From assembly GCA_024741835.1 (NCBI GenBank), contig JAENRP010000196.1, positions 4,163-68,162 on the forward strand: a DNA stretch of 64,000 bases. The letters run 5' to 3'. Origin of the DNA: Diplocarpon mali (lineage: Eukaryota > Ascomycota > Leotiomycetes > Helotiales > Drepanopezizaceae). Positions within the stretch are counted from its first letter, which is position 1, and each line of letters starts with the position of its first letter. Shown here in pieces: positions 9,896-60,187 of this stretch. Position numbers and translations under genes: made by a program. The notes below the pieces were generated by a model. The model had not been told where the DNA came from. It saw only the letters and a program-made list of their open reading frames with translations, and searched no databases.

Positions 9896-9918
9896 ACTCC
9901 TAGGCTAGGCCTACGAGT
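9896..9918. repeat. Dispersed 23 bp palindrome in F
   Basis: Arms ACTCCTAGGC and GCCTACGAGT around a TA centre. Confidence 0.85.
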
Positions 9919-10252
9919 AAAAATATAAAAATGCAATTTTATATACCTTAAGTTCTTTATCTTTACCTTTAGCAACTGCACCTGCTTTTTCAATATCAAT
10001 ATTTGAAAAGATTAAAAATGTTAATTTTAAACCTCCCTTTAACCCTTTGCCTAAATCTTTTCAAGCTCGCCTTAGTCACTTTAAGATTGATTCGAATTCT
10101 AAAAACTCTTTAGAATACCTTAAATCTTATATTCGACCTAGCCCCCTTCCTCCTATTGAAATAAATAAAGCAATAATAGCCGCCTTTAAAGCTATTACTA
10201 ATCATTTTCCCCTTCCTAGTTCCCTTAGCGCTCCTTATTTCACTAGAGCTAA

Positions 10253-10337
10253 TGTTGTGCATAATACCGCTCGGCCAAAATGTGAATCCACACCTTAGGG
10301 CGCGTACTAGCATATTTAGCCTATTTTCTATATAATA
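10253..10337 (-). repeat. 3' LTR of TRIM1
   Basis: 85 bp, TGTTGTGCATAATACC at the outer end to CTATATAATA at the inner end. The middle (CGGCCAAAATGTGAATCC) is identical in most copies. Confidence 0.9.
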
Positions 10338-10664
10338 TACCCCCTAGGTCGCTGGAAGAACAGTTTTTCCGACGGCCTAAGTACTAGCCCAGTCTATAGT
10401 AGCGTAGATATAGCGCATAGACCGCTAAGCTAATAGGAAATAGGTAGTCGGAAGGCCGGAATGCATTTTTCTTCAGCTATATATCGGACGGCTATCGGAC
10501 GTCTTTTTACTTAAACTTATCGAAACTTCTATTGATATAGTTGAAACCGAGTATGATCATTGCCGAGAATTTGAAAAGTAGTTTATTAGTAGAACTTCGA
10601 AGTGAGAAAAGTCGGCTAAACCTCGCGTAAGAGGAATGCGAAAAGATTTATTGCTACGCTTATA

Positions 10665-10675
10665 GGGCTTATAAC
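10665..10675 (-). other. Primer binding site of TRIM1
   Basis: Reverse strand GTTATAAGCCC directly inside the 5' LTR, followed by TATAAGC exactly as in A2 (48324-48341). This ties the TRIM to the copia families. Confidence 0.65.
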
Positions 10676-10760
10676 TATTATACATAATACCGCTCGGCCA
10701 AAATGTGAATCCACACCTTAGGGCGCGTACTAGCATATTTAGCCTATTTTCTGTACAATA
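10676..10760 (-). repeat. 5' LTR of TRIM1
   Basis: 85 bp. Outer end CTGTACAATA is less mutated than the matching inner end of the other LTR. Confidence 0.9.
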
Positions 10761-11387
10761 GCTAATATTACTAATTTCCTTAAATAATATAAGGAGACTT
10801 ATTATAATTTTAGCATTAGATATAATAAAATGATCAATCGACTTTCCTACTATTGCGATTAAACTAATAAAGATATTATTGAATCTCTACTTAAGTAAAA
10901 GCTTTGCAAGTCCTAGGAACTACTTATTAAGGCTCTTAAAGCTGAATTTTAAGAATTTAATAGATAGCAGATTCGCAATACTCTAGCCTTTCTAAAAGAG
11001 TTTGTTCTTATTATACGCACTCCTAAGGAACTTAAGAATTACTATCGGACTTTTACTTATATATCAAACGCCTTAATCAGCTAGAAAATACTTAGCGAAG
11101 TTAAAAGAGGCCGCCTTTTCCTACTTAGATTACCTATTAGCCTTTGCAATAAGATCATTAAGAATTTCAGGATCAATAAGCAAGACCCTATAACCTTCGC
11201 CTTATTTAAGGAATTCTCGGCCTTTACTTTAAAATCAGATCTTAGTAAGAGAACTATTAATGCTATAGAATAGGAAAAAGCCCCTACTCCCTCTTATACT
11301 AAAGACCTTAAGAGCTTAGTTCAAGAATACTCAAAGGCTTTAGAAGTTATAAAGGAGGCAAAGAGAAATCCAATAGTAATCCCCTTT

Positions 11388-11410
11388 ATTTGCAGTCCTA
11401 GCCTAGGAGT
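11388..11410. repeat. Dispersed 23 bp palindrome in F
   Basis: ATTTGCAGTCC, then TAGCCTAGGAGT. In the interrupted F frame it reads C-S-P-S-L-G-V, the standard phase. Confidence 0.8.
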
Positions 11411-11818: not shown

Positions 11819-11841
11819 ACTCGCGGTCTTAGCCTAAGAGT
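11819..11841. repeat. Dispersed 23 bp palindrome in F
   Basis: ACTCGCGGTC, then TTAGCCTAAGAGT. The forward open stretch 11783-11954 reads it as TRGLSLRV, the standard phase. Confidence 0.85.
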
Positions 11842-14621: not shown

Positions 14622-14771
14622 ATTCTTAGGCCTACTTTGCAAGTTAGGTTATATAGTCTTATAGAGGAAAGTTTTTAAATCGACTCCTAGGCTTAGACCG
14701 CAAGTTAAGTCATATAGTCTTATAAAGGAACGCTTTTAAGGAAATTTGACTCCTAGTCCTACCTTATAAGT
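14622..14771. repeat. Three palindromes in the B4 3' UTR
   Basis: Starts 14622, 14683 and 14749, intervals 61 and 66 bp. They lie after the pol stop, and the first interval is not a multiple of 3. Same trio in B2 at 35129-35277. Confidence 0.85.
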
Positions 14772-16186: not shown

Positions 16187-16209
16187 ACTCGCGGGCCCGG
16201 CCTAGGAGT
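16187..16209. repeat. Dispersed palindrome in C1 3' UTR
   Basis: ACTCGCGGGCC, C, GGCCTAGGAGT: nearly free of RIP damage. Lies between the pol end and the 3' LTR. Same place in C2 at 56702. Confidence 0.9.
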
Positions 16210-16309: not shown

Positions 16310-18589
16310 CAATTTGATAAAGGCGGTATAGTTAGAGCTATTTAAGCTCTTAGTAAGTCCATCGGCAGCGTTGTCTTTAGTATTCGTATACTAGAGGTCC
16401 AAATGGCCTTTCCGAAGCTCTTACTAAATATAATAGAACTTGATATTAATATACTTTATTCTCTAATGATATTCGGGGTTTTTAGTAAGATAAAGGGCTC
16501 CTTAGTTGTTATAGATCATCTCGACTTTAGTAGCGTCGTCGCTGCTATAGCCTATTTCCTTAAGTACCTAGCGTATCTAAGAGGCCTTTTATACGAATTT
16601 GCATATAGCAATATACTCTACCTTTATAGATAAGAGAGCAATAATAGTTTATCGCTTAAAGGAGGTAGTAATTATACTATTATTAAGGAAGAAGACGGCC
16701 TTAGAATAAGAGGCTCTAGTTCCTCTATCGCCTGCTTAGTTAGAATCGCAGTAGCTATGCAATTTCTAAAGCTTTAGGTCAGTTGTTTTACTTCCGAAGG
16801 TAGTATAATAGAATCGCGTTCCTTATAAGTATTATAAAACTCGTTTTAAAGCTGCTATATATTATAGTAAAGGGTTAGTAAGGAATTTGCTAAGAATGGA
16901 GCAGTAGTATAGTATATCCTAATATATATAGTACATAAGGTACTATAGAGAATTATAGATCTCTTAATACAGCTTTACTTCCTATAGAATGGCTTAGCCT
17001 TCAAATTTGACCATATGAACTTTATAGCCACTAGCAAAAGGCGTTAGTACGCTCTTATAATTAATCATATAAAAACGTTTAAGAACCTTATTAACGTAGG
17101 CGTCTTAATAAAGCGAGATCGTTCTATTTTATCGATCTCTAACTATATATACTTTTAAGAAGTAGTTAGCCAGTTCGCTACTTATAATCTTAAAGAGGTT
17201 GCAAAGATCTCTTTTAAACTTATTATATATATTACCTTTCTTTACTACTATAAGAAAGTCGTTAATGTAAGTAATAATAAGAATCCGAGAGGCGCAGTTA
17301 ATATATATGCAATTATTAGTATTTAGAGGTTGAAAATCGAGCTTTTGCAGCTTAGACTATAGCTTTTCTTACTATAGTCTTAGAGATTGCTTTAAGCTAT
17401 ATAAGGCCTTAAGAAGCTTAAGATAGTAGTCTTAAAGTAAAAGAACGACCTTATCTTAAGTGTATTTAGAAGGTAACTTAATATAAATATTAAAGTCAGC
17501 TTTTAAATTAAGGAAAGCTGTCTTAATGTCGAACTGATTTAGCTTAAAGTCGTATAGCACTGCAAGCGCAATTGCGATCTTCTAGACCGTAGATTTGCAT
17601 ACTTTAGCAAAAGTCTAGTTATAATCTCGACCTTATCATTATATATAGCTTTATATAATAAATCTAACCTTCTATTAGGAGATTTCTCTATTTTAGTCTC
17701 TTTTTATTTTAAAGATAAGCCTTGATTTAAGTATTCTATTATCTTTAAAGAGTTTTAAGCGTTTCACTACTACCTATATATTCTTATAAGCAAGGGAATT
17801 GTACTTAGAGTTGATCGCAGATCGCCATTTATTAGCATTAGCGCAAGAGAGGGCTTATTCGACTGTTTTCAGGTCATTTAAGTATAGAGAGTCGAGTAAG
17901 GCTATATAGAAGGCGCTTAAATAGGCTTCCTTATTATTAGAGTTATCAGCTTTGAATCTAAGAGCATAAGTTGAGCGAGTAGCTCTTTTCTCGGAAGGCT
18001 AAGGGTAAGCCTTATTCTTTAAACCAGGAGGTCTTCCTCTCTTTCTTAAAGTTGGAAGCTTAGCGTTATTAGCTTCTCCTAAATCAGAATTGACTCGCGG
18101 TCCTAGCCTAAGAGTGAAATCATTATAAGAGTCAGAATTGACTCGCGGTCCTGGCCTAGGAGTAAAGTTATCGTAAGAGTCAGAATTGACTCGCAGTCCT
18201 AGCTTAGGAGTGAAATCACCCTTTAATTGCGGCTTTATAATTAGGCCGTCTTTATCGAATCGAATATAAGATGATCGAATAATCTTATTACCTATTTGCA
18301 ATAGTATATAGATCTGATAGATACTTCTATTATCAAATCCGATAAGAGTACCTACCTCTGCTCTTAGAGCGAGTTTATTACTCTAAGTTCGCTTTTCTTT
18401 TTCAATTAGCATATAGACGCAATAACCTAGTACTTAAAGATACTTGACTAAGGGAGTATAAGGCTTATTAGGCTCGATATTATCCCAAAAGACCTTATAT
18501 AGAGTCTTACTACTTAGAATATCAAAGGCGGTAAGATTAGTAATATATATCACCGAAAGAAGGAGGTAAGGCTAGAGAAAGGAGGGGAT
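16310..18589 (-). pseudogene. Copia C1 pol: integrase tail, linker, reverse transcriptase, RNase H
   Basis: Reverse-strand translation. At about 17390-17400 ALYSLKQSLRL; at about 17240-17290 ILIITYINDFLIVVKKGN (YVDD decayed to YIND); RNase H below 17000 (MYYIYYTRIYYTIALR). Upstream, 17999-18301 is open and reads IRFDKDGLIIKP, three palindrome-encoded repeats such as FTPRPGPRVNSDS, then RKRGRPPGLKNK, an AT-hook-like tail often seen between integrase and reverse transcriptase in copia elements. The open stretch 16403-16633 is on the other strand and is a shadow. Cut at 18589 by D1. Confidence 0.86.
18093..18211. repeat. Three in-phase palindromes in C1 integrase-RT linker
   Basis: Starts 18093, 18141 and 18189, intervals 48 and 48 bp (16 codons). 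The open reverse frame 17999-18301 reads them as LTPKLGLRV/FTPRPGPRV/FTLRLGPRV units. Confidence 0.92.
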
Positions 18590-20497: not shown

Positions 20498-20565
20498 ACT
20501 TGTAGGCTAGGCCTGCGAGTGGAATCGATCTGTACTAAAGTCACTTATAGGCTGGGCCCGCAAGT
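20498..20565. repeat. Two in-phase palindromes between RNase H and integrase of D1
   Basis: Starts 20498 and 20543, interval 45 bp. The D1 reverse frame reads NDSTCGPSL, stop, VTLVQIDSTRRPSLQVIS, continuous with flanking Pol, so both lie in the host frame. Confidence 0.9.
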
Positions 20566-22000: not shown

Positions 22001-23033
22001 CGATTAAAGATATTCTTAAACTTAGCGTACTAAGGTAGGAGCTTCTAATCTATTAGCTTATTATTACTCTTATACTTAGCTTGCAGCGCCGAACTAAGGC
22101 CAAGGGAGCTAATTTCAGCTTGCCTAGCTGATTGTCGGCGATTGATCTTTCAGTCTAGATTGTAAATAAAGCTTACGAATATAAACTCTTTAGGTGCCGG
22201 TTCTTAAGTTTATATAGCTTATCTTACCTTAGTTATAAAGCGGTAGTAAAGGGCGCCGATTATTAAGGCTAAGATTAGGCTGATTTAGTAAGCTCTCTTT
22301 AAAGGAGCGTTTCTCTTTATTAAAAGAGGAAGCAAAGGGTTTAATACTTTTAATAAAGCCTTCTTTATATAGTTCAGATCTCTTTTTAAGTCTTTAAAGA
22401 AACTGCTATCCTTAGGTTTATAAGAGGCCACTCGCGGGCTAGGCTTAGAAGTGGAATCCGAATTCGCAGTTTTCACTTATAGGCCGGGACTAAGAGTGGA
22501 ATTCGAAGCGTTATTACTTATTAGTATTAAGAGCTAGGCTTAGGCCATTCTTAGGTCTTTGTCCTTAGCGTCTATTATAGCTACTTAACAATTGATATCT
22601 TACTAGGCTATTAAGGGTTTTATTAGCTATAAGAGATCGATTAGTACGCGTTGATCAAAGTAGGAGACAATAGGCATATCCTTAGGCTAAGAGATACTGT
22701 TTTTCCCCCTTCTATAGGACTGTTTAAGATTATAGTACTCTAGGAACTTCCTACTGATTAAAACGTCAGTTGCTCTTAAGCTTATGATTAAGAAAGGGAA
22801 GTTTATTTATCGCCTATCGATTATAAGAGTAAGTAAAATAGCAAATCAAATAGTTTCTCCCTTAAGGCTATTATAGCTAGTAGGGGTAATCGGTTTAAGT
22901 AGTTTAATAAACTTTACCCTAAGTCTTTAAAAGAGCTAGTATACTAGAGATATCTTAATAATACTGAAAATATTAGCTCTATTATTAATATAGGCAACTA
23001 TTTTAATAAATGATCTATTTTAAGCTAGTTTTA
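22001..23033 (-). pseudogene. Gypsy D1 protease region
   Basis: Between gag and reverse transcriptase on the reverse strand, where the retroviral-type aspartic protease is expected. I cannot point to an intact DTG/DSG. The open stretch 22285-22476 (MKTANSDSTSKPSPRVASYK) is in the sense frame and contains a palindrome-derived peptide (TSKPSPRV). Cut at 23033 by B2 (TSD TTTTA, 23029-23033 and 35611-35615). Confidence 0.6.
22430..22497. repeat. Two in-phase palindromes in D1 upstream of reverse transcriptase
   Basis: Starts 22430 and 22475, interval 45 bp. The first encodes TSKPSPRV in the reverse frame 22285-22476. D2 has the same pair at 44802 and 44847. Confidence 0.9.
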
Positions 23034-23228
23034 TATTAAGATGGGTGATATAGCTATTACTCTGATATATTATCATGTGACCCTACTGCTTAGTCAATAG
23101 GATATTGATACGTATATAGCTATAGGGAAGAAAGGGGTAACCTTCCTTCCCTAACTCTTACTAATATATCGATTATCAACCTTTAGAAGTTTCCTATACC
23201 TACTGCGCCGACTTACTTAAGCTTAATA
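23034..23228 (+). repeat. 5' LTR of B2
   Basis: 195 bp, TATTAAGATGGGTGATA to AAGCTTAATA (from TGTTGAGATG...CTCAACA). Confidence 0.92.
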
Positions 23229-23240
23229 GGTTATAAGCCC
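23229..23240 (+). other. Primer binding site of B2
   Basis: GGTTATAAGCCC followed by TGG directly after the LTR. With one RIP change reversed it is GGTTATGAGCCCTG, complementary to the anticodon arm of fungal initiator tRNA-Met. Confidence 0.7.
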
Positions 23241-23348
23241 TGGATAGACCGATAATAGATTATTAACTTCCCTTAGAAAGCACTTGCGCCGCAACTATTA
23301 ATAGGAAGTTGAATAAGACTTATAGTAAAAGGCAAGCAATCGGCGAAT

Positions 23349-23475
23349 AAGAGGTATGATTCCTTATTTAGCTAACCTGTATTATAAGAGATATGATTCC
23401 TTGCTCTATAACCCCTTTGGTACTATAAAAGGTATGATTCCTTGCTTTACTATATTTTATAAGAGGTATAATTCC
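23349..23475 (+). repeat. Leader repeats of B2
   Basis: Four units AAGAGGTATGATTCC at 23349, 23386, 23427 and 23461, with single-base differences, in the untranslated leader. The open stretch 23356-23553 is an artefact of this repetition. Confidence 0.85.
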
Positions 23476-23639
23476 CTGCATTACAGCCTAAAAACCCTTT
23501 TCGATAAAAGGACTTCCTCCCCATTTAATACTTTTATAACACCTGCTATTTAATCATTTTAATATTTCGATAGGAGGAATGCCCTCAACTATTTAATTTA
23601 TTTGATTTTTTTTTCAACGCAATTCTATTTGAAACGGCA

Positions 23640-25150
23640 ATAGCTTCCGATTCCGATCGAAATACTAGACCTAAAGACCTCCAACTCTCTTAAAAGAACT
23701 AGCAATAATAGTTCGACGATTTAAAGCTTTACTTTAAGAGTAAAGGCATCGAAATAGCGATTTAAAAGACACTTGTTAAATACGTAAGAATAGCCCCTTA
23801 TACTCCTTCTACTAATTCGTCTACTTTTACTTTAATAGCTAATATAACTGCTAAGGATTTGCTAAATATACTAAATAAGCTTAGCTTAAGAGCTTTAATA
23901 GATAATAACTGAGAATCCTAAAGGCAGATTTTAAATATAGAAAAGGAGAAGGAGTATAAGCTAGCCTTAGCTAAATGCAAGCTTAAGATCAATAGAGGTT
24001 TAAGCGATAAAGACCGAGATTTTATTTAAGTTTATAATAATATAAAGATAAGATAGGATACTTTAAAGGCAAAATACTCTTAGACAACTGCCTTTAATAC
24101 CTAGTATTTGCTATAGCAGATCACTTTATTTTAATATAGAAAAGATAAAGATAGTAAAGATATAAATATAAATATAGACTCTACTTAATCTATACTGCGT
24201 AAAGCAAGAAGGAGAGTAAAAGCCGTAAATCCTAGGATAGCTATAACTTTTAAGGAAACTTAGCTTTTTAGTTTCTTATTCAATAGCCTCCTTCTTAAGT
24301 TCGCTATTGCAAAACAATCTCTTCTCGTCTAACCCAACCTTAAGATCTATAAGAAGATCGACCTCTTTTAAACTATTAAGCAAGACCTTAAAGGATACTC
24401 TAAATCGGCAAATGCTGCGTTATAAGGCAAAGACAAGCCCGAGAAGAGGAAGGAGCGCAGGACAAGCCCTTAAGCTTATTAAGGATGCTACTTTTATAAT
24501 AGTGCTTATAATATTACTAATTATAAAGTTAAAAGGCAATTGATTAATATAATCGCTAACTTTAATATTAAGAAGCAATTGAAGCAAAAGTCAAAAAGCA
24601 AACTACCCTTATCTTACTAAAGGCCGCAACTACTAAGGAAAGGCAAAGGAAAAGGCTATTTAGCTAGAACTTCAGCAGATACCTTTAATAATAATAGTAG
24701 GTTATCTAAACCTAGATCCACTTTTAATAATTTAAATAATAATTATAATAAAGATGCCTATATTTTAAAAGCCGATCTCTATAAGATCCTTGAATCCGAT
24801 TAGTATAGTAATACTAGTTGTATAGCATATATAACTAATAAACCCTACCTATTTAAAGGCCCGCTTATTAAAATAAAAAGGCGCTCTATTAAGGTTAGTA
24901 GTAAAAGGTTATATATAGACTTAATAGGTATAGTAAAGATAAATATCGCTAGCGTTTCTTTCCTTTTACAAAATATTCTCCTTATACCTAGCTTAAGTAT
25001 TAATCTCTTATTTAACTGCAAGATTTATATAAAGTTGAATTATATAAGAGTTTTTAATAATTAATTTATATAGTTTATAAATAATAATTATAAAGTGATC
25101 TTTAAAGCTAAGATTAAAAATAGACTTTATATTATCTTAAAGGTAATATT
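23640..25150 (+). pseudogene. Copia B2 gag and protease region
   Basis: Starts after the leader; the first half is shared with B1 and B3. An open stretch 24307-24543 (MQNNLFSSNPTLRSIRRS) is in the sense direction and basic (KTSPRRGRS), possibly a nucleic-acid-binding part of Gag. No CCHC knuckle is visible. The part about 24780-25150 (for example SVSFLLQNILLIPSLSINLL) precedes the palindrome array and resembles the copia protease neighbourhood, but I see no clean DSG. Confidence 0.6.
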
Positions 25151-25160
25151 ATAGAAATTG

Positions 25161-25630
25161 ACTCTTAAGCCGGACTTATAAGTGAATTCCTTTAAGGAAA
25201 GTGCACTCTTTGCCTTAATATAATTAAGTGAGGATAAGAAGAATAGATAGACTCTTAAGCTAGGATTGCAAGTAAAATTCGCGAAAATAACTCTTAAGCT
25301 AAGATTATAAATAGATTGCAAAGTATCTTTAAAGGTAACTCTTAAGCTAGGATTATAAGTGAATTTAATAGAAATAACTCTTAGGCCAAGACTGCAAGTA
25401 GATTCTATAGATTTGCTAATAATAACTCTTAGGCTAGGATCGCAAGTGAAATTTGCAGAAATAACTCTTAGGCTAGGATTATAAGTGAAATTCGCAAATT
25501 CGTTAAAGATAACTCTTAAGCTAAGACTATAAGTAGATCTTGCTATTTCTAGGAAATCGACCTTTAAGCTAAGACTATAAGTAGATCTCGCGGTTTTACT
25601 AAAAACGACTCCTAAGCTAGGCTTGCAATT
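25161..25630. repeat. Array of ten in-phase palindromes in B2
   Basis: Starts 25161, 25251, 25290, 25338, 25377, 25425, 25464, 25512, 25560 and 25608. Intervals 90, 39, 48, 39, 48, 39, 48, 48, 48 bp, all multiples of 3. The forward frame reads units such as ITLRLGSQV and ITLKLGL, so this was a peptide repeat of 13 or 16 residues between the gag/protease part and the integrase. The reverse open stretch 25127-25321 is a shadow, made possible by the symmetry. Confidence 0.92.
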
Positions 25631-25719
25631 AAAAAATAATAAAACCTTAAACTACTATTACTAGTCCTTTCCAGCTGCTAATAATAAAGTATCAACTGAT
25701 AATAGGCTACTAAAGCTAT

Positions 25720-26974
25720 TAGAAGCCGAAAGCCTATTAAGGTATTAGTTAATATATAGAAGATTCGCGCATCTAAGGCTAAAGAAATTAAAGGGCTTAT
25801 ATAAGGTCTCGACTTTAAAATGGAAGATCTAAGTACTAAAGGATCGCCTAATATGCCGAATTTGCAAGCTAATAAAACTTTAAAATCGGACGCAAACTAA
25901 GCTTAATCTATAAAAAGATTTAATACTAGCGCTAATATCTATTAATATTACTAAACCATTTATAACTTTAATCAAAGGAAATAATTAGTTTTCTTAAATA
26001 GTAGATAACTCTACTTAATAGATATAGACTATTTACGCTAGAACTAAATCTAAGCTTATAGAAAAGTTGGAAACTTGAAAAGTGATAGAGGAACGCCAGA
26101 CCTAATTAAAGCTAATAGCTATTAAGTCTAATAACGCATTAGAGATTAGGGCAAAGCTTAATAAATAGGTAAAATAAAGAGTTTATTATAAACTAATTAT
26201 AATATACAAAGGTTCCTACTAGAATAGCATCGCTAAGCGAAGTATTTAGCAAGTAGAGATTAACTATTGCACTCTATTACAAGATGCTAACCTACTATTA
26301 GAATTCTAGGACCTTGCGATTAAGGCAAATATATACTTGCGAAATAGAATAGGTAATAGACTAATAGTCAATAGTACCTAAATATCGCTATATAAAGTAT
26401 ATTTTAGATAAAAACTAAGCCTAGACTACATCTGCGTCTTTAAAAGCGTCTGCTACTCTTACATTAGCCCGAAGTCCTAGCCCGCGGGTATAAAGAGCAA
26501 AAAGCTAATAGACCGAAGTAGAGAGTATATATTTATTAAGTATATTAAATAGATAATAAAATAATAGATAGTATATACGCTAGATCTAAGGCGAGTAATT
26601 ATATCCTTAATAGTTAAGTTCGATAAATCTCGAAATAAAAGGGAGCTATCCTTAAAGCTCTATATACTTAAAGATTCGTAAGGTATACCACTTGATAGTA
26701 ATACTATTAAGCCGAACTAATAACCCCTTTCTCTTAGCTTAGGTATATTAAGCGTATCCGCTGATCGACGATCTGCTAATCGCCTAAAGGCCGAATAGAC
26801 CATTCCTATCGTCCGCGAACTACTTAAAGTATAAAATAACTTTAATATTATTATCCCTTTAGTTAAAGCACTTATAGTAAAGGATATTCTTAAAATAGGT
26901 ATAAGTAATAATAAGCCTCTACTATCAGAAAGCGGTTCCTTAGATAATAAGCCTATAGAACCTATAGCTAAACT
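25720..26974 (+). pseudogene. Copia B2 GAG-pre-integrase and integrase
   Basis: Forward translation at about 25740-25860 gives RRFAHLRLKKLKGLYKVS, then CRICKLIKL, the His/Cys zinc-binding GAG-pre-integrase domain. The integrase core follows with SPKSQPAGIKSKK near 26470. Cut at 26974 by E (TSD AAACT); reverse transcriptase resumes at 33362. Stops throughout. Confidence 0.85.
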
Positions 26975-27278
26975 TATGATAGATTGTCACTATGTGTAGG
27001 TTGTACCCCGGTTCGTACCCGGTTTGTACCCGGTTTAGTTACGGCTTAGCGCAATCTTGGTATAGGCTAAAAAACCGGGTTACTCCCAGTTGGCATCTAG
27101 TTCAGATCCCCTTAAGCAAGTGACCCTCTTTTCTTTATATATATATTCTATGCCCTTTCACTCCTTTAGGGCTTAGTAGTTATTGATTTTAAGTTATTAT
27201 TAAGACGTTCTATTAGTATTGCTATATGATTCGTATATGTATTAGTGCTAAGCAGAGGTTATACTCTTAGTTATTATA
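26975..27278 (+). repeat. 5' LTR of E
   Basis: 304 bp. Near its start three direct repeats GTACCC(C)GGTT lie 11-12 bp apart (27003-27035), and later AACCGGGTTACTCCC. The repeats are partly erased in the 3' LTR. Confidence 0.93.
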
Positions 27279-27830
27279 TTATTAATAACTCTTTCGCTTT
27301 GCTAAAGATAGCATTATAATATTTATTTATATTATTCTTAGTAGTCGACCGAAACCCTAATGAGTATAATAATATACTAAAAGACCTATACTAAGCTCTT
27401 GCTATAAGCTTGAAGAATAGTTTCCCTTATCACTCGGTCTTTAAAGACCCTTTGCTCTCTCTCTTAAGAAGGTGCTAGTATTACCCCTAGTACCTTTCCT
27501 ACTAACTCCCTACTAGCCGATAACGATAGCCTTAAAGTCACTATATTATAAGTTGAACTAGATTCCTTATAAGCACAACTTACGTTTATATTAGAAGAAT
27601 ATAATAGGTATAACTATAAGTTGAATTCTATATACTAATAGTTAATTGATTAAGAAAGAGATCTAGATAACCTCTAAAGCGCCTTTAAAGGCATCTTAAG
27701 ATCAATTGAGAAAACACTTATACTTAAACTTTAAAATACTTCCGATTTACTTATGCGTTCCTAACGCTTTATAAACTTCGACTTACCTCCTTTTGTTTCC
27801 TCTACTGCGCGCAGTAAGCGATGCAATAAT
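27279..27830 (+). other. E leader
   Basis: Between the 5' LTR and the first recognisable gag sequence. The bases after the LTR (TTATTAATAACTC) do not match a tRNA that I know. Nothing else is seen. Confidence 0.5.
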
Positions 27831-28880
27831 TAAGACGATCCTTCTTTTGCTTCCCCCGACCGATATACTACCAATTTACCTCTAGCTTAGCAGCTAAACC
27901 TTCCTTGCATTTATAATATACTAAACCTTACTTAGAAACTGTCTAATAGCTATAATTACTGCGCTAAATACTAGGAGGCCTGCGTATTTAATAATTTAAA
28001 GCTTTACTACCCTTACTTCTATAAGGAATAGGCCTAGTTTAATTACGTTTTAGATTAGACTAAGGGTATAGCTAAGGACTAGCTGACCCTTTAGGTACTT
28101 AATAAGAACGCCTGAATTACTGCCGAAACCCTAGTAAGTCAACTTACTAAGTTCTTAGCTAACTTAACAGAATGCGAAGAAGCCGAGATTGAGTTTATTA
28201 CCCTTTATATAAAGGCTAATAAGTCTTTTTAGGAATTCTACTTTAAGTTCTCCTAACTAGCTGCTATAGTAGAGATCGACGATAATAGTCGACTTTATAG
28301 CGCCCTTAGGGAGAAAATCCTAAAATGCTTCTAAACCTCCCTTATATAGAAGTAGTATAAGACTAGGACATTAGATAAGTAGGTTATTGCTATCTAATAA
28401 GAAGATGCTAGATAGCGCGCTAAGAGGATACTATATAGTTAGATATAATATAGAGAGAGATTGGGTATTAAAGCTAAAGCTAATTTTAATAAAAATGCCT
28501 AATAAGGAGATAATGATAAATCAAATCCCTTGCTAAGAAACCTTTTTAAATCGTATCTAAATCGACCCTAGTATAGTACCCTTGCCTTTAGCTTTGCTAA
28601 GTCCGGAACTCCCTCTTTTCCTTTGCGCTGGACCGATACCTTTAGTGCTCCCTCTTTAGCTAATCGAAAAAATCAGTTTAATAAACGGCCGAAATCTCCC
28701 TTTGTTACTTTTAAGTATTATAGCTCTTGCGTTAATAAGCTTAAGTATAATAATGGCTAAGGATAGAGTAGCGATAAAGAGGAGGACCTTAAGGCTGAAT
28801 AAGATAATAGTAGCGCTTCCCTTCCCCCTTCGACTCTTAGGGGAAACGCCCTTACTTAAGTAAAGCCTCCTTCTTAGGCG
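27831..28880 (+). pseudogene. gag remnant of E
   Basis: Forward sequence upstream of the protease, with pieces such as VSQLTKFLANLTECEEAEI and FITLYIKANKSF, a gypsy capsid-like helical pattern. No CCHC box remains recognisable. Several TAA/TAG interruptions. Confidence 0.65.
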
Positions 28881-29300
28881 TACTTTATAATATGCGATAC
28901 CTCGATTTAAAAAACCTCTTTAGTGGCGATTCGATAATAAAACGGATCCTACTTTTAAAGAATGGTATTTCTTATAAGGTATTAGCATTAATTGATATAG
29001 GCGCTAATAGGTATGCTTTGATTGATTTAGTATTACTTAAATCTTTATCTTCTTTTCTTAAACTATTAATTCGCATACTTCCTATACCCTTTTTAGTTAA
29101 GGGATATAATAGTTCTTAGGGTAGTACTATTACTTATTATATACTACTTAATCTGTGTATCGATTAGCGAATTTAATCTTTTACTCCCTTTCTTATTACT
29201 AACTTCGGCAATTATAAAGTGATTTTAAGAAGAGCTTGGCTTAAGGAGTATAAAGTTTCTATTAATTGTACTTCTTATAAGCTGACCTAGCCCGATTCCT
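28881..29300 (+). pseudogene. Aspartic protease of E
   Basis: Open at 28892-29119. YKVLALIDIGANRYALID carries the catalytic LIDTGA(N/S) box of gypsy proteases with Thr changed to Ile (ACT/ACA to AT-), a RIP-type change. It would cut Gag-Pol. The frame ends just after GYNSS with TAG, probably a former TGG. The replaced active-site Thr and the stops indicate it is inactive. Confidence 0.85.
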
Positions 29301-29899
29301 ATCCTCCTACTGTCTCTTTTATAAGGAATATCGAAATCACTAATACTAAATAGCAAAACTTGGATTAATACTACTAGCGAAATGCAATTCGATATGATAT
29401 AGTACTAGAACGGTCCCTTTTTAAGTATAAAGCTCGATGCTAGGAAGCCCTTTTCCAACTCCCTTTTAAATCACCTCCTATTCCGATTAAATACTCTTTT
29501 ACCGATTTTACCCCGACTTTACCTTAAGTCGAGGGTAATACCTTTTCTAAGGACTACTCCTACTATATATTGATTATAAAGCGAGAGCTTAATGCAATTA
29601 AGCCTAACTTAGCTCCTTCTTCTGTTTCGACCTTAAAACGTATTTGTAAGTAGATAGCGAAGTGTAAAATTCTCCTTTTATCTTTAAATATATATGTAAT
29701 TTCAGCTTATGCTTTTTATATAATAGCTAGGAATTAGCAAGGTATAAAGCTCTTTAGTATCTTATTTTATGAAATTGATCAATTGATTTAAGATAATTAA
29801 GAAAGTCAGACCTAATAATGTGAAACCGATTCCCTCTTAAACTAATACTATAATAGAAAGGTTTCGGTAGCTGTTTTAACTGCCTCTCTTAAACTAATT

Positions 29900-31330: not shown

Positions 31331-31599
31331 ATAATATTATTGCGCTAGGATCAGATTAACCCTCGAATCCTCTTTAAATAGCTTTACAAATAGACTATAG
31401 CTAAGAACCTAGTCTCTATTAAAGAAGTTTCGGCTTTTTCCCTTACTTTTTATATTATTAATTAAGTACTAGCCGCTAATTAATAATATAGGCCTTACTA
31501 AGTCTATCGCCAGGTAGCCCTTTAAAATAGGTCTAATATAGCCTTGACTAAGACTAACCCTTAGACAATAGAAGGAGATTTGCTTCTCTTTTAAAGTAA

Positions 31600-32980: not shown

Positions 32981-33052
32981 TATAATAAAATAGGTGACGA
33001 TAAACCTATGGTTAAACGCTTAAGGATGAGCTTTTTTCAAGAGGGAGGGTGA

Positions 33053-33356: not shown

Positions 33357-33361
33357 AAACT

Positions 33362-39785: not shown

Positions 39786-39862
39786 ACTCTTAGGCCCGGC
39801 CTGCGAGTGGAAATTGGCCTTAAGGAGGAGTCGGAATTGACTCCTAGGCCTGGCTCGCAAGT
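39786..39862. repeat. Two in-phase palindromes in C1 between gag and integrase
   Basis: Starts 39786 and 39840, interval 54 bp (18 codons). Same pair with the same spacing in C2 at 60111 and 60165. Confidence 0.9.
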
Positions 39863-42854: not shown

Positions 42855-42922
42855 ACTTATAGGCCGGGCCTAGGAGTGGAATTGATCTACGCTAAAGTTA
42901 CTTATAAGCCGGGCCTAGGAGT
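42855..42922. repeat. Two in-phase palindromes between RNase H and integrase of D2
   Basis: Starts 42855 and 42900, interval 45 bp. ACTTATAGGCC, G, GGCCTAGGAGT is nearly undamaged. Confidence 0.92.
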
Positions 42923-44380: not shown

Positions 44381-45400
44381 AGTATACTAAGGCAAGAGCT
44401 TCTAGTCTATTAGCTTATTATTACTCTTATACTTAGCTTATAGCGCCGAACTAAGGCTAAGGGAGCTAATTTCAGCTTACTTAACCGATTCTTAGCGATT
44501 GATTTCTTAGCGATTGATTTCTTAATCTAGATTATAAATAGAGCTTATAAATATAAACTCTTTAAGTGCTAGTTCTTAAGTTTATATAGCTTGTTTTACC
44601 TTAGTTATAAAGCGGTAATAGAGGGCGCCGATTACTAAGGCTAAGATTAGGCTAATCTAATAAGCTATCTTTAAAGGAGCATTTCTCTTTATTAAAAAAG
44701 GAAGCAAAGGGTCTAGTACTTTTAGTAAGGCCTTCTTTATATAGTTCAGATCTCTTTTCAAGTCTTTAAAGAAACTACTATCCCTAGGACTATAAGAGGC
44801 CACTTGCAGGCCAGGCCTAAGAGTGGAATTCGAATTCGCAGTTTTCACTTATAGGCTAGGCCTAGGAGTGGAATTCGAGTTATTACTTATTAGCACCGAG
44901 AGCTAGGCTTAGGCTATTCTTAAGTCTTTGTCCTTAGCGTCTATTATAGCTGCTTAACGATCGATATTTTATTAGGCTATTAGGAGTTTTATTAATTGCA
45001 AGAGATCAATTAGTACGTATCGATTAGAGTAGAAAATAATAGGCATATCCTTAAGCTAAGATATACTATTTTTCCCCTTTTTATAAGACTATTTAAGGTT
45101 ATAGTACTTTAGGAACTTCCTATTAATTAAAACGTCGGTTGCTCTTAAGCTTATAATTAAAAAAGGGAAGTTTATTTATCGCCTATTGATTATAAAGGTG
45201 AGTAAGATAGCAAATCGAATAGTTTCTCCCTTAAGGCTATTATAGTTAATAAGGGTAATTAGTTTAAGCAGTTTAATAAACTTTACCTTAAGTCTTTAAA
45301 AGAGCTAATATACTAAAGACGTCTTAATAATATTGAAAATATTAGCTCTATTATTAATATAAGCAACTATTTTAATAAATGATCTATTTTAAGCTAGTTT
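44381..45400 (-). pseudogene. Gypsy D2 protease region
   Basis: Parallel to D1 22001-23033. The reverse open stretch 44657-44848 (MKTANSNSTLRPGLQVASY) is the same frame as D1 22285-22476, with the palindrome reading TLRPGLQV. No clear DTG. Confidence 0.6.
44802..44869. repeat. Two in-phase palindromes in D2 upstream of reverse transcriptase
   Basis: Starts 44802 and 44847, interval 45 bp. ACTTGCAGGCC, A, GGCCTAAGAGT. Confidence 0.92.
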
Positions 45401-47820
45401 TATAGAAACTAAGAATTAGCGGCCGCCTATTAATAAGTAAGAATTAAAATCTAAGTCTTTTTATAAATTATAACCTATATTATAGTAGGAGTCTTTGCTA
45501 TAGCTTAGCAGTTTCCTAATAGTAGGTTATTTTCTATCTTAACTTTAGCTACTATAAACTCGCCTTACTTCTTTAGCTTAAGGCAATCTATTATATAATA
45601 ACTAAGGGCTTTATAGTTATAGTAGAGATTAAACAATAGCTTTAGGCTAGCAGACCTTTCTTAATAGGCCGCTAGTAAGAGGGAATAAGTATAAGAAGCT
45701 AAGGAGGTAGCTATGGCTATAGGTCTTTATACCTCCCTTTTCAATATGCTAAGGACGCAGTCCTTTAAAAGGGAGAACGCAATAGTAGAGGCGACTTATT
45801 AAGTATTATAGGCTTCTTCTTACCTAATATTATAAGTCTTACGGTCCGCAATAGCTAAGAACTCATTTAAAGTAGTATAATCATTATTCATTTTATACTT
45901 CTCTACTTAAAGGTTGTTCTTTAAGGCTAAGGAGACCTTTTTATAGATATTATCAAACTAGCGAGACTGATCGATCTTATTAGCTATAATAAGAGTAATA
46001 AACTTAGATCAGAACTTATTATATAATATTAAGCCTATAGTTAGCCTACTATATTTAAGCTTAATAGATTAAATATAATTATAATTAAAGAACCTTTAAT
46101 CTAAAACCTTAAAGATATTAATAGCATATATAAACTTATTAATAAAGATAGGATTTATATATTATAAGATTAGGTTTTAAGCTTTACTTATTATATACTT
46201 AAAGTAGGCAATGATCTAGTCCTTTCTTAAAGTGAAGTTGCTTAAGTACTTTTAAATAAATACCTTTATAGCTATCTTTTAAGCGTTATAGGTAATTTCG
46301 CCTTAGTAGTTGCTAAAATGGGTTTAAAGGTACTTGATTTAATAAGGGTTAACGGCTAAGACTAAAGGTCGGATGATTAAAAGGTAGTAGTCTAAGGGAG
46401 GTAGTAAGTTAGCAGTAAGGGACCGAGTATTCTAAGGGCTAGTACTTAAGAAAGAAGGGGCAGTAGCATTATTTTAAAGAGTAGCGGCTATAGCAGCGCT
46501 AACAAGGTTTGCGATTTCGACCTATTAAGCAGCTAAAAAGAGAAGGGCTAATATAGTAAGGATAGACGTCTTTAAAGAGAGTATATCTTCTTTCTTAACT
46601 TTAATTAATAGTAATAGGGTATTTTAAGAATCCACTTATAGGCCAGGCCTAAGAGTAAAATCTATATTAAAGGAGGTTTCTTCTTAAGTAGGCTTAGGAG
46701 AAGGAATATCTCTAGGACTAGGGTTAGCAGTAAGGCCTATAGAACTGGTAGTAATAAGGCCTAGTAGTAGAGGTGCGGTTAACCTTTTACTTCTTTTAAA
46801 TAGTATAAGATTAGAGGTCATAAGTACTAACTCTTCCTATATTATCTAATTTAATCTAAAAGGACCTAATGCTAAATAGTGACCTATTTAAAAGGGGAAA
46901 GATTAGTATAAGCAGAGCTATATACGTTCTTAAAGCCTTTTAGTAGAGTATATATTAAAGTATTATAGGTTTATAGATCTTAAGAGAGAAGGTTTTACTT
47001 TAGGATCACGTCTCTTTATTAATTAGGAGTTATAATAAGGTTATATAAAAAGGGGTATAGTACAAATCTAGGAAAGTAGGGTCTAAAGCTTATTACTCTA
47101 CCAAATTTGACTTAGTCTTAAACAGTATAATATAACCTATTAAGGCTAATTAAGTCTTTATATATATATATAGGTATAGGTCCCTTAGTTTGTACCTAAG
47201 TATAAGAAGGAAGGAGTAAGGAGCTTTAAAGAGTATAAGGAAGAGTCGACGAGTATAAGTCGATAGGAAGTATAGAAAAGGTCGACGACTTATTCGTAAG
47301 GAGGGGTCTTTAAAGAGTCGAGTTATATTCGAGGGTTTTAAAGGAAGGAGTGAGGAGCTTCGAAGAGTATAAGAAGAGTTATTAAAGAGTATAAGGAGAG
47401 TTATCGATAAGTATAAGGTTGATAAAAAAGAGTAGTATAGAGTATTTATAAGAGAAGGAGAGAGTTAAAAAGAGAAAAGTTATTATACTACTCTAGGCAG
47501 CAGCCTACGCTAGCAAAGCGAGGATATAGTAAATAAATTTTTTTCTTTTCGAATTAAAATTGAAAGTGAATTTCCATTTGCAAAATGGAATAGGTAAGGG
47601 GTCGAAAAAACGAGCTAATCTTATATTCAAAGGTCGTTTTTCAGCTTCCTTTAAAAACTAGATTAGTAAGATCTAGGCACTATATACGAGTTACTTAAGG
47701 CAGTTTGTAGTAGAAGTCGAGATCGAGAGATCGAGTTGCTTAAAGCAGTTCGATATAACGATTCTAAAGGGGGTAGATATTAAGCTTCTTAGCAGAGGTT
47801 AAGTAGATCTTTTCTTATAT
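45401..47820 (-). pseudogene. Gypsy D2 gag and leader
   Basis: Uninterrupted counterpart of D1 35611-38523. Gag is about 45400-46900; a purine-rich tract (47210-47480) and leader follow toward the LTR. Confidence 0.65.
46634..46656. repeat. Palindrome in D2 gag
   Basis: ACTTATAGGCC, A, GGCCTAAGAGT. Same place as D1 37350. Confidence 0.9.
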
Positions 47821-56052: not shown

Positions 56053-56291
56053 ATTTTAATACAATTCTATTTAAAATAGTAATAGCTTCCGATTCCGATC
56101 GAAATATTAAGCTAAGAGACCTTTAACTCTCTTAGAAGAACTAGCAATAATAGTTCGACGATTTAAAGCTTTACTTTAAGAGCAAAGGTATCGAAATAGC
56201 AATTTAAAAGACACTTATTAAATATGCGAGAATAGCCTTCTATACTCCTTCTACTGATTCGTCTACTTCTACTTTAATAGCTAATATAATT
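56053..56291 (+). pseudogene. Copia B3 gag, first piece
   Basis: Matches B2 23625-23850. Cut by C2 (TSD TAATT 56287-56291 and 61871-61875). Confidence 0.82.
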
Positions 56292-56524
56292 TGTAGCAAT
56301 GAGGTTCTCTGATAGTGAACTTGATAGTAAACTAAAAGAGGGCACGAAGAAGTATAAGGTGCAAACGACGATATTGGGTGTCTTGATTCATAAGAGCTCT
56401 CTAACTACGAGCTATTTAACAAGGGCTGCCACTAAGTCATATGGCAAGTCATATGATATATCATATGTATGATATATCATATGATAGATTATATGATAAA
56501 CATATGACGGGCATACCTGCAATA
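56292..56524 (-). repeat. 3' LTR of C2
   Basis: 233 bp with the CATATG cluster at about 56438-56505. Confidence 0.92.
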
Positions 56525-56701
56525 CACCCCTCTAGGGAGACCTTTAAAGGTACTTGCTAGCAATATATATAATATCATAACTTTTATTATAATCTATAGT
56601 TTCGCATGAAAAATCAACCTATAGATATGGGAAATAGAGTAGAGTTTGCTAGCGCGCTCTACTCTAGAGTAGGAAATCCACCCTTTAGTAAGTCAAAATC
56701 A

Positions 56702-56724
56702 ACTCGCGGGCCCGGTCTGGGAGT
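56702..56724. repeat. Palindrome in C2 3' UTR
   Basis: ACTCGCGGGCC, C, GGTCTGGGAGT. Confidence 0.9.
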
Positions 56725-56815
56725 AAAAAAAAAAAAAAATCACCCCTTAATGGAAGTGCAAAAAAAAATCACCCTATAATAGAGGTGTAAAAAAAATCAT
56801 CCCTTAATCGAGGTG
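56725..56815. repeat. Tandem ~28 bp repeat in C2 3' UTR
   Basis: Three units of A-run plus ATCACCCC/TTAAT.GAGGTGC, following the palindrome as in C1. Confidence 0.85.
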
Positions 56816-56829
56816 CAGAACCTTCATAT

Positions 56830-59095
56830 TTAACAATTTGATAAAGGCGGCGTGGTTAGAGCTATTTAAGCTCTTAGTAAGGCCGTCGGCGGCGTTGTCT
56901 TTGGTATTTGTATACCAGAGGTCCAAATGGCCTTTCTGAAGCTCTTGCCGAATATAATAGAACTTAATATTAATATGCTTTATTCTCTAGTGATATTCGG
57001 GATTTTCGGTAAGATAAAGGGCTTCCTAGTTATCGTAGATCATCTCGACTTTAGTAGCATTATCGCTAGCGTAGTCTATTTCCTTAAGTACCTGGCGTAT
57101 CTAAGAGGCCTCTTATGCGAATTTGCATATAGCGACGTACTCTACTTCTATAGATAAGAGAGCGATAATAGTCTATCGCTTAAAGGAGGCGGTAATTATG
57201 CTATTATTAAGGAAGAAGACGGCCTTAGAATAGGAGGCTCTACTTCCTTTGTCGCCTGCCTAATTAGAATCGCAGTAGCTATGCAATTTCTAAAGCTCTA
57301 AGTCAGTTCTTTTGCTTCCGAAGGTAGTATAATAGAATCGCGTTCCTTATAAGTATTATAAAACTCGTTTTAAAGCTACTATATATTATAGTAAAGGGTT
57401 AATAAGGAATTTGCTAAGAATAGAGTAGTAGTATAGTATATCCTAATATGTATAATGCGCAAAGTACTATAAAGAACTATAGATCTCTTAGTATAGCTTC
57501 ACTTCCTATAGAGTGGCTTAGCCTTTAAATTTGACCATATGAACTTTATAGCTACTAGCAAAAGGCGTTAGTATACTTTTATAATTAGTCATATGAAAAC
57601 GTTTAAAAACCTTATTAATATAGGCGTCTTAATAAAGTAAGATTGTTCTATTTTATCGATCTCTAACTATACGTACTCTTAAGAAGTAGTTAGCCGGTTC
57701 GCTACCTATGATTTCGAAGAGGTTGCGAAGATCTCTTTTGAACTTATCATATATATTACCTTTCTTAGCTACTATAAGGAAGTCGTTAATATAGGTAATA
57801 ATAAGAATCTGAGAGGCGCGGTTAATATATATGCAATTATTAGTATCGAGAGGTTGAAAATCGAGCTTTTATAGCTCGGACTATAGCTTTTCTTACTATA
57901 GTTATAAAGATTGCTTTAAGCTATATAAGGCCTTAAGAAGCTTAAGATAGTATTCTTAAAGGGAAAGAACGACCTTATTTTAAGTATATTTAGGAGGTAA
58001 CTTAATATAAATATTAGAGTCAGCTTCTAAATTAAGGAAAGCTATCTTAACGTCGAACTGATCTAGCTCAAAGTCATATAGCGCTGCGAGCGCAATTGCG
58101 ATCTTCTAAACCGCAGATTTGCATACTCTAGTAAAAGTCTAGTTGTAATCTCAACCTTATCGTTGCATATAGCCTTATATAACGAATCTGACCTTCTATT
58201 AGGAGATTTCCCTATTTTAGTCTCTTTTGGTTTTAAAGATAAGTCTTGATCCGAGTACTATATTGTCTTTAGATAGTTTTAAGTGTTTTACTACTACCTA
58301 TATATTCTTATAAGCGAGGGAATTGTACTTAGAGTTGATCGCAAATCGCTATTTATTGGCGTCAGCGCAAGAGAGGGCTTATTCGACTATTTTTAAATCA
58401 TTTAGATAAAGAGAGTCAAGTAAAACTATATAGAAGGCGCTTAAATAGGCTTCCTTATTATTAAAGTTATTAGCTTTGAATCTAAGAGTAGTAGAGCAAG
58501 TAGCTCTCTTCTTAAAAGGCTAAGGGTAAGCTTTGTTCTTTAAACCAAGAGGTCTTCCTCTCTTTCTTAGAGTTGGAAGCTCAGCTTCTTCTAAATCAGA
58601 ATTGACTCCTAGTCCCAGCCTAGGAGTGAAATCATTATAAGAGTCAGTATTAACTCGCGGTCTTAGCCTAGGAGTGAAATCGTAAGAGTCAGAATTGACT
58701 CGCGGTCCTGGCCTAAGAGTGAAATCACCCTTTAATTTTAGCTTTATAATCAGGCCGTCTTTATCGAATCGAATATAAGAAGATCGAATAATCTTTTTAC
58801 CTATTTACAATAGTATATAAATTTGATAGATACTTCTACTATCAAATCTGATAAAAGTACTTACCTCTGCTCTTAGAGCGAGTTTATTACTCTATATTCG
58901 CTTTTCTTTCTCGATTAGCATATAGACGCAATAGCCTAGTACTCAAAGATGCTTAACTAAAGGAGTATAAGGCTTATTAGGTTTAATATTATCCTAAAAG
59001 ACCTTATATAAAGTCTTACCACTTAAAATATTAGATACGGTAAGATTAGTAATATATATTATCAAAAGAAGGAGGTAAGGCTAGAGAAAGGAGGG
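56830..59095 (-). pseudogene. Copia C2 linker, reverse transcriptase and RNase H
   Basis: Parallel to C1 16310-18589. Reverse-strand motifs as in C1; the linker reads LPTLRKRGRPLGLKNKAYP (AT-hook-like) next to three palindrome repeats. The forward open stretch 56927-57157 is a shadow. Confidence 0.86.
58605..58720. repeat. Three in-phase palindromes in C2 linker
   Basis: Starts 58605, 58653 and 58698, intervals 48 and 45 bp. C1 has 48 and 48, so one 3 bp change has occurred without loss of phase. Confidence 0.92.
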
Positions 59096-60105
59096 GATAT
59101 TTTAATCAATTATAGCTATTTGCAACTTTTCCATTAGTATACGAATTAATCGTTTAAATCTGCTATCTTATTCTAGCGTATATAAAGTAGATTCTTCTAA
59201 AATCATACTAAGGTTTTCTATAAGTATTCGCATCTATATAAGAGAGTACTCCTTGCCTCTATTAGTTCTCTAACGTTTGATTATGCGATTATATTAAGTT
59301 TATAAAAGGCTAATCATCTTCTTATTTACTTTAAAGGCGTTAGATTTATTTATATAAGTCTATTCCTATTTAACTATTATAACTACGCAAGTGAAGATAG
59401 AAGCGTATTTATAGCTATTAAGGCCAATTGGCTTTAGATGAACTATATTAATATATAGCTTATCAAGTACCTTTGTAGGTCAAGGGCAAGCTAAACGTTT
59501 ATTAATATATTAGAGAGGTCTGCCTTTCTTATAAGGAGCGTAAATTCGCGTCTTCCTTGATTTTGTTTCCTTAATCTGCATATTAGTAATAGCAGATTAG
59601 GTCTTTTTAACCGTTTATAAGCTAGTATAGCCTAATCGATAGTGCCAGAGCTTAATATTAAGAGGTCTATTCTTAATAGCAGCTAAAAGAGTATATCCAC
59701 TTATATAATTAAAGGAGTTAGTAGAAGGCTATTCCTTATTAATATATATATTATTATCGATAGTGCAAATTTCCTTCTTATTAGATAGGAATAGCTTGCT
59801 ATTTCAATAGAAGCCTTTGATTTTATTAAGTTTACTACTTAAGTATAAGCAGATAGGTAATTAAAGTATATAAAGAGTATTAATTAATTTAAGAATATAT
59901 ACCTTTCTATTGGATTTAAGTGCGTTAACTTTGCAAATGCTAATGCTAAGAGGTTAAATAGATCTATTAACTATACTTAAGGAGGGCAGATTGTTTTAAG
60001 TAGTATAGGAAGTAAACTTAGAAAGATTATTAAAGATATGCTTATTAGCACTTATATTATATAGCTAACGATTCCTCAATTTTAATAAAAAGCAAGAGGT
60101 AGAAG
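59096..60105 (-). pseudogene. Copia C2 integrase
   Basis: Reverse strand: RIYAPYKKGRPLQYI (zinc-binding end, at about 59515-59560), YINIVHLKPIGLNSH, RTNRGKEYS at about 59245 (core Asp), PNKPYTPLVKHL at about 58960. Broken by stops. Confidence 0.84.
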
Positions 60106-60110
60106 AACTG

Positions 60111-60187
60111 ACTCCTAGGCCTGGCCTGCGAGTGGAAATTGGCCTTAGGGAGGAGTCGGAATTGACTCCTAGGCCCGGCTCGCGAGT
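60111..60187. repeat. Two in-phase palindromes between C2 gag and integrase
   Basis: Starts 60111 and 60165, interval 54 bp. ACTCCTAGGCC, T, GGCCTGCGAGT and ACTCCTAGGCC, C, GGCTCGCGAGT. Confidence 0.92.

Follow-up and report, generated by a model that had tools for sequence, protein, structure and literature searches.

An oriented 23-bp dyad shared by several transposon families in the genome of Diplocarpon mali

How did one short, palindrome-like sequence come to lie at many different positions in transposons of several families and, where it is found within their genes, mostly in one reading phase? This question is raised by a 64,000-nt stretch of the genome of the leaf-spot ascomycete Diplocarpon mali (contig JAENRP010000196.1, positions 4,163 to 68,162; hereafter, the window), which is a nest of mutated transposons with a GC content of about 33%. 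An earlier note, made from the sequence of the window alone, had recorded at least 38 copies of an imperfect palindrome, here called the dyad. We put at about one half the probability that the dyad is an old short insert, which had already reached several transposon lineages when the present copies formed, and whose numbers then rose through host multiplication and through tandem duplication in frame.

Shape and abundance of the dyad

Scored over its 22 arm positions, the dyad occurs 41 times in the window at a threshold of at least 16 matches (50 local shuffles gave a mean of 0.48 and a maximum of 3), 31 times at 17 or more (mean 0.08, maximum 1), and 29 times at 18 or more (0 in 50 shuffles). 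A few of the dyads found at 16/22 may be chance matches, and the earlier count of at least 38 was a fair one. The core (scan pattern ACTCYNRGNCNNNGNCYNYGAGT) is strictly 23 bp long and extends, with its conserved flanks, to ca. 35 bp; the consensus is RAWTYN-ACTC(C/T)TRGGCC-N-GG(A/C)CYGCGAGT-NRAWTY (about 27-35 bp). The spacer between the arms, previously given as 1-3 bp, is 1 bp, and this length is strict, since the spacer-less 22-bp pattern was found at a single genomic site. The first A and the last T of the core were kept in 137 of 137 motifs. Outside the core, position -2 was C or T in 38/38 and position +24 was A or G in 38/38 chosen distinct sites, with the neighbouring bases further out leaning to RAWT and AWTY.

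The dyad is a palindrome only approximately, since its two halves differ systematically: one is of the form ACTC[CT].. (Y, CTA-type), the other of the form ACTC[GA].. (X). Core columns 4 and 18 were complementary in 12 of 136 motifs, compared with 43 expected under independence. Genome-wide, strict half-type patterns revealed 1297 mixed-half copies (664 + 633) out of 1420, the rest having either two G/A halves (82) or two C/T halves (41), and the reversed controls gave zero matches for every pattern. The motif therefore has a direction, and the mixed halves point to descent from one oriented ancestor. Judging from columns 4 and 18 and from the half-type counts, the arms are not kept complementary by compensatory change.

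A scan of the whole genome (49.37 Mb, 676 contigs), which the earlier note had proposed, was conducted with a looser pattern allowing one mismatch. It yielded 3610 forward and 3592 reverse matches (7 and 13, respectively, with the reversed control); forward and reverse matches overlap in part, because the dyad is nearly self-complementary. Contig C2 had no exact match among the matches listed for the one-mismatch and half-type patterns. As expected for a fungal sequence, the exact motif was found 0 times in GTDB genome contigs and 0 times in IMG/VR. A sample of 264 kb, consisting of the window and 200 kb in 20 stretches picked at transposon blocks, contained 138 motifs at a threshold of at least 18 of 23 positions including the free centre column, i.e., at least 17 of 22. 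These motifs have 45 distinct left/right flank pairs, several of which are units of one tandem array. An additional 31 loci were taken for carrying the motif (the first in contig order, some of them overlapping, and three picked as isolated). Their local GC content was 0.23-0.42 and, across the motif, 30 of the 31 matched transposon families designated B (12), F (7), D (6), or C (5); the last one, L001, has a 22-bp variant with a family F match beside it. The location of the dyad is nuclear and not mitochondrial, as seen from the nested long terminal repeat (LTR) elements that surround it and from an amino acid permease gene that lies ca. 4 kb from a B-array dyad in locus L035.

A scan for other inverted repeats (arms of at least 10, loop of at most 6) away from the motif returned 94 raw rows; among those listed, most were single by eye. 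A few appear more than once, apparently because a single transposon position was copied, and none in the rows listed appeared by eye to be common to several families. Only 13 rows of the same scan fell inside the motif, because the motif arms are imperfect.

Within families, the differences between copies are mostly C/T and G/A, as expected from mutation of the repeat-induced point mutation (RIP) type. Transversions were scored by site-column, with 2 of 28 sites left out because they had too few copies. In the 18 core columns that do not discriminate between halves, transversions were present at 3 of 461 site-columns, compared with 138 of 6424 in the flanks (p 0.025), while in the four half-discriminating columns they were present at 9 of 102 (p 0.0005 against the same flanks). 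Counts by pairs, which are not independent, were 14/10800 for the core, 75/2400 for the half-discriminating columns, and 1110/123278 for the flanks. Conservation between sites is inflated, because the motif was found by similarity. The transversions in the half-discriminating columns are consistent with an exchange of half-types at a fixed site. In the RVT_1 matches listed, stops are mostly TAG or TAA with few TGA (by eye), which is expected from C-to-T change at CAG and CAA.

Carrier families and reading phase

Family B is a 6.1-kb LTR element (LTR about 195 bp), and is probably Ty1/copia-like because of a Pol_BBD piece in another copy (L034:8836-9327, E 0.0022, below the Pfam cut-off). Its dyads lie after the Pol_BBD piece and in the 3' untranslated region (UTR). 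Family C (5.58 kb, LTR 238 bp) is also probably Ty1/copia-like; matches to SH3_retrovirus (17999-18382, E 0.0045) and RVT_2 (17129-17356, 5e-6), both below the Pfam cut-offs, were found in its second copy in the window. Family C carries dyads in gag, between the SH3 domain and the reverse transcriptase (RT), and in the 3' UTR. The stop that follows KNKAYP is common to both C copies (17999-18001 and 58520-58522). Family D, 7.1 kb long with direct terminal repeats, has an RVT_1 match above the cut-off at C15:102521-103003 and is Ty3/gypsy-like. One of its pieces matches three proteins of Diplocarpon coronariae at 76-82% identity. The dyads of family D are located in gag, before RT, and between RNase H and integrase (IN). 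Family F is more than 14 kb long and has many dyads (C19:37223-51590, loci L031-L032, or 22223-36590 of the stitched stretch; about 9081-11468 in the window). The copies compared match at about 72-90% identity and, from their collinearity, we infer that F is a single element; 67 pieces from several copies matched only two weak, unrelated Pfam families (E 0.03-0.05), and other F pieces had no informative match. A fifth carrier, at L041:5759-7793, is 2.0 kb long, contains 319-bp direct repeats (96% identical) as well as three dyads, and resembles a short non-autonomous LTR element. Protein searches with a C linker piece and a B array piece returned nothing at E <= 0.01.

Thus, the sharing of the dyad that the earlier note had described is real, while its "four unrelated retrotransposon families" include two, B and C, that both appear copia-like, and one, F, without an informative Pfam match. 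The dyad is a dispersed short element at non-homologous positions: its contexts in B, C, D, and F differ, and no single homologous protein position common to the families was found. It had been reported as absent from family A; this is correct at a threshold of at least 18/22, with one 16/22 match at 31828. The 7.5-kb RVT_1-bearing element of contig C8 likewise has no dyad at 18/22 or more.

Reading phase was analyzed at sampled sites, not at all genomic copies. At five D and C coding sites (nine windows of sequence), the phase that starts the motif at ACT has the fewest sense-strand stops, 3-10 per window versus 12-30 in the two remaining sense phases. The corresponding numbers are 8 versus 12-17 in D gag, 8-9 versus 15-26 in the D pre-RT region, 9-10 versus 19-23 between RNase H and IN of D, 3 versus 18-30 in the C linker, and 5-8 versus 15-27 in C gag. 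Pooled stop densities also favour the ACT phase for the B array and for most F sites, in some cases weakly. Between RNase H and IN, heavily mutated D copies have another frame with equally few stops; no clear phase is evident for sites F6 and F11 or for those of clusters 10, 11, 14, and 15. One F site, L032 1508, is different: in 4/4 copies, the longest frame that crosses the motif begins a base later (KGTRLAVLAYES or similar). Two L041 sites, considered as phase-1 exceptions (163-aa frame), were dropped; by eye, their opposite strand shares a peptide with the dyad at window position 11819.

Retention of the ACT phase is partly forced by the TAG that the dyad itself contains: as read from the sequence, this TAG closes one non-ACT phase when the Y half is first, and the other one when the X half is first. 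The view of the earlier note that the dyad is kept in one reading phase therefore stands as a bias toward the ACT phase (the three phases are unequal in the sites examined), a bias that is partly imposed by the TAG and that the L032 1508 site does not follow. The proposed peptide, T-x-R-P-G-x-x-V, is looser on the strands translated and reads T-x-x-P/L-x-x-x-V. In the coding clusters of the window, 15/15 neighbouring intervals are multiples of 3 (39, 45, 48, 54, 90, 126, 144), while in the B 3' UTR the intervals are 61, 65, and 66, only the last of which is a multiple of 3. The dyad is thus found in frame inside unrelated coding genes (D gag, pre-RT, and RNase H-IN regions; C gag and the SH3-RT linker; the B array), and all of its in-frame host genes are transposon genes.

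Origin of the dyad

Changes in copy number of the dyad involve whole tandem units. Full-span alignments were obtained for 135 of 136 queries; 20 of these, all from the array-bearing clusters 0-3, had a partner without the motif, which in the cases shown had lost a single complete tandem unit (39, 45, 48, or about 61 bp). In one F copy (L046:843-865) two sites are joined inside the motif, the left flank coming from one and the right flank from the other, with ca. 4 kb missing between them. Evidence of recombination between dyads consists of this joint and of the tandem-unit changes, with no general excess. When B-array sites were included, a left-right identity difference above 0.10 was seen in 0.189 of 143 pairs, presumably due to misregistered array units. 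A mosaic reading of D gag, where split matches are 88-95% identical on the left and mostly 68-74% on the right (83-91% in some short pieces), was dropped because the D copies compared show no identity jump. In a D-family protein of D. coronariae, P0009 (PZA11_007750), a gag-like start runs, by eye, into the pre-RT region at P-G-P-R-V.

What favours an insert is that the units are block-like, occur in both orientations, and show signs of half exchange at fixed sites. We infer that a short insert (about 27-35 bp with a 23-bp core) entered many positions in several transposon lineages, in either orientation, before the present transposon copies arose. It would have survived where it did little harm, namely in 3' UTRs and, in a stop-free phase, in inter-domain Gag-Pol linkers, and its hosts would have passively multiplied it to thousands of copies. 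Local gain and loss of whole tandem units, by multiples of 3 in coding parts, would have added to this. The insert most likely moved between positions and families by copying through recombination or gene conversion, in the manner reported for yeast mitochondrial GC clusters, rather than by cut-and-paste; template switching during reverse transcription is a possible route.

Several results weigh against an insert, and in particular against a freely mobile one. No empty site was found in the 135 spanned queries. At site F13, 40 of 239 candidates were scored, among them the site's own copy, and 40/40 were 35 bases longer than the joined flanks. Among 38 scored two-flank copies of the D gag site, 23 were 35 bases longer, 15 were 17-32 bases longer, and none was 0 longer (two more scored copies match the left flank only); the dyad is known from at least two of these shorter copies, so that in those the shortfall lies elsewhere. 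All sites tested for emptiness thus look fixed in their families, and insertion itself was not seen; the lack of empty sites is the reason why the probability of the insert is kept at the value given above. At 20 single sites, no target or flank duplication above that of permuted pairs was detected. Outside the B array, there was no excess of identity jumps at the motif over random transposon positions: left-right differences above 0.10 were seen in 0.013 of 304 motif pairs, compared with 0.027 of 1974 control pairs. Finally, no copy was found outside transposons, although free mobility could be expected to leave some there; the sample included hardly any gene-rich DNA and does not establish that host genes lack the dyad.

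A bolder form of the old insert is a parasite of parasites, i.e., a selfish word of ca. 35 bp that in the nucleus lives only inside transposons, crosses copia, gypsy, and giant elements, spreads by recombination-driven copying of its own dyad, and uses the phase that is open in both orientations. We advance this joint proposal tentatively, as distinctly less probable than the old insert itself.

The positions, the orientations, and the UTR copies of the dyad rule out a single inherited domain and make a peptide module unlikely, while its unequal halves and inconsistent folding speak against an RNA hairpin. The readings that remain are the old insert spread among transposon lineages and a protein-binding site kept there. 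In the latter case, the dyad would be a cis-acting site with two half-sites for a dimeric protein, encoded by the host or by the elements, and would have been selected in several families for transcription, chromatin, or integration. We consider this unlikely, and less so than the other alternatives. Such a site would account for the strict length, the mirrored conservation down to the invariant first A and last T, the low number of core transversions, and the presence in four or five carrier families, most with several sites each. Cores in 3' UTRs agree (0/72 transversions versus 15/1018 in flanks), with a difference that is not significant alone (p 0.62). However, the halves of the dyad are systematically unequal, its places in coding linkers and UTRs vary without any fixed promoter-like position, and both family A and the C8 element do without it at the threshold given above. 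We also know of no protein that would bind such a dyad.

The phase bias, the placement between domains, and the intervals in multiples of 3 could all result from selection of a flexible hinge at the protein level, T-P-R-P-G-P-R-V or, on the reverse strand, T-R-R-P-G-L-G-V. This is improbable, since dyads also occupy the 3' UTRs of B and C, reversed copies in C gag specify a different peptide, F site 8 is read in another phase (LAVLAYE and the like), and the nucleotides at -2 and +24 are constrained at UTR sites as well. About equally improbable is an RNA hairpin that serves packaging, dimerisation, or localisation of retrotransposon RNA. The C/T (CTA-type) half does come first in the sense strand at 7/8 loci of representative B, C, and D copies (C gag is reversed, and some D copies are ambiguous in half order), and of 6 strands folded, taken from five sites, 2 gave z values of -2.25 and -2.57; the remaining four strands, however, ranged from -1.84 to +0.40, and core columns 4/18 carry a conserved mismatch, contrary to what compensatory pairing would give. 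That the transposons inherited a single protein domain or tandem satellite, with no separate element, is very improbable: local tandem duplication is real, and the spacers of one B array unit and one D pre-RT unit agree at 16/16 nt in purine/pyrimidine code, but so does one B-F spacer pair, shifted controls reach 13-15, and the sites lie in non-homologous copia, gypsy, and F contexts, including UTRs, in both orientations.

If mobile, the dyad would be a very small selfish DNA unit that passes from one nuclear transposon to another, unrelated one, and it would supply their proteins with in-frame linker insertions; if a binding site, it would be one host-reading signal common to several unrelated transposon families. 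Either way, it is a common tag of the repeat compartment of this genome. Features of the window are listed in Table 1. A 28-29-bp tandem repeat (AAAAAAATCACCCTTTAATAGAGGTGCA) follows the C 3' UTR dyad in both C copies, directly at 16210-16293 and after 6 bases at 56731-56817.

Table 1. Carrier elements and dyads in the window (positions are those of the window)
Feature	Position	Strand	Remarks
Family B, LTR element, probably Ty1/copia-like, split by family A	23033..35619	+	direct repeats 23033-23237 / 35415-35619
Family A, inserted in B	26975-33344		direct repeats 26975-27266 / 33053-33344
B dyad array (25161, 25251, 25377, 25425, 25464, 25608)	25161..25630	+	intervals 90, 126, 48, 39, 144
Three dyads before B 3' LTR (35129, 35190, 35255)	35129..35277	+	intervals 61, 65
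Two dyads (14683, 14749), another B 3' end	14683..14771	+	interval 66
Family C, LTR element, probably Ty1/copia-like	56285..61868	-	direct repeats; SH3_retrovirus and RVT_2 in other copy
Three dyads, C linker from SH3-like domain to RT	58605..58720	-	in-frame T-x-x-x-x-x-x-V; frame from sister copy
C linker trio, second C copy	18093..18211	-	
Dyad pair, C gag	60111..60187	-	orientation opposite to other C sites relative to coding sense
C gag dyad pair, partial C copy	39786..39862	-	
Dyad, C 3' UTR	56702..56724	-	6 bases before 29-bp tandem repeat
C 3' UTR dyad, second C copy	16187..16209	-	22/22 arm positions fit
Dyad pair between RNase H and integrase, family D	42855..42922	-	frame from other copies
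Dyad pair before RT, family D	44802..44869	-	frame from other copies
Dyad, D gag	46634..46656	-	frame from other copies
RNase H-integrase pair, another D copy	20498..20565	-	first dyad: both halves of X kind, orientation ambiguous
Pre-RT pair, D copy of 20498..20565	22430..22497	-	
Dyad, family F	9896..9918	not assigned	
Dyad, family F	11388..11410	not assigned	homologous to L032:4637
Dyad adjoining F	11819..11841	not assigned	flanking peptide common with one of three dyads of the L041 2.0-kb element

Comparison with known short repeats

In the literature on fungal palindromic elements in transposons, no description of the motif was found in titles and the beginnings of abstracts, a search that most subscription papers lie outside. 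By word search only, the main texts of the genome papers of D. coronariae (PMC11527701), D. rosae (PMC5628827), and M. brunnea (PMC3484023) contain no "palindrom". The published D. coronariae assembly is described as 20.7% copia and 5.7% Ty3 elements (PMC11527701). Miniature inverted-repeat transposable elements (MITEs) resemble the dyad in being short inverted-repeat inserts without genes, and differ from it in that the dyad has no target-site duplication (20 single sites) and no transposase partner was identified for it. MITEs are, besides, usually far longer than 23-35 bp. Fungal GalEa copia elements are reported to have a conserved 9-bp hairpin site beside the 5' LTR, at the usual place of the primer-binding site (PMC5445492). 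This, too, is a short conserved palindrome in fungal copia elements; the dyad, in contrast, lies at many internal positions and also in the gypsy-like D and in F. The many short hairpin repeats described in Volvox carteri occur in both orientations in organelle and nuclear DNA (PMC2670323); according to that account they belong to noncoding organelle DNA and are judged inert in the nucleus, whereas the dyad is found in coding DNA of nuclear transposons.

The closest parallels are two. The earlier note had likened the dyad to Rickettsia palindromic elements (RPEs), which are described as palindromic inserts that lie in frame in unrelated genes and specify a conserved peptide (PMC10969869). The behaviour is the same, in that the dyad is in frame in unrelated genes. 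The dyad differs from them in length, in host, and in gene setting: RPEs measure about 150 bp, fall into named families, and occupy host genes of bacteria, while the dyad is 23-35 bp long, fungal, and confined in the material studied to transposon genes and UTRs. Gene copies with and without the insert, a trait of RPEs, were not seen in 135 queries, 40 F13 copies, or 38 D gag copies, and target duplication was likewise absent. Yeast mitochondrial GC clusters are described as short, GC-richer, palindrome-like inserts in AT-rich DNA, with in-frame variants in var1, which act as recombination hot spots and gene-conversion substrates (PMC8811140). The dyad resembles them as a short GC-richer palindrome-like insert that is in frame in coding DNA. 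Unlike them, it is nuclear and inside transposons, has unequal halves, shows no empty/filled polymorphism, and lacks AG/TAG-like terminal duplications (20 single sites). Were the dyad indeed a parasite of parasites, it would be their nuclear counterpart. By analogy, then, the dyad appears to work like yeast mitochondrial GC clusters or RPEs, while fitting the definition of neither.

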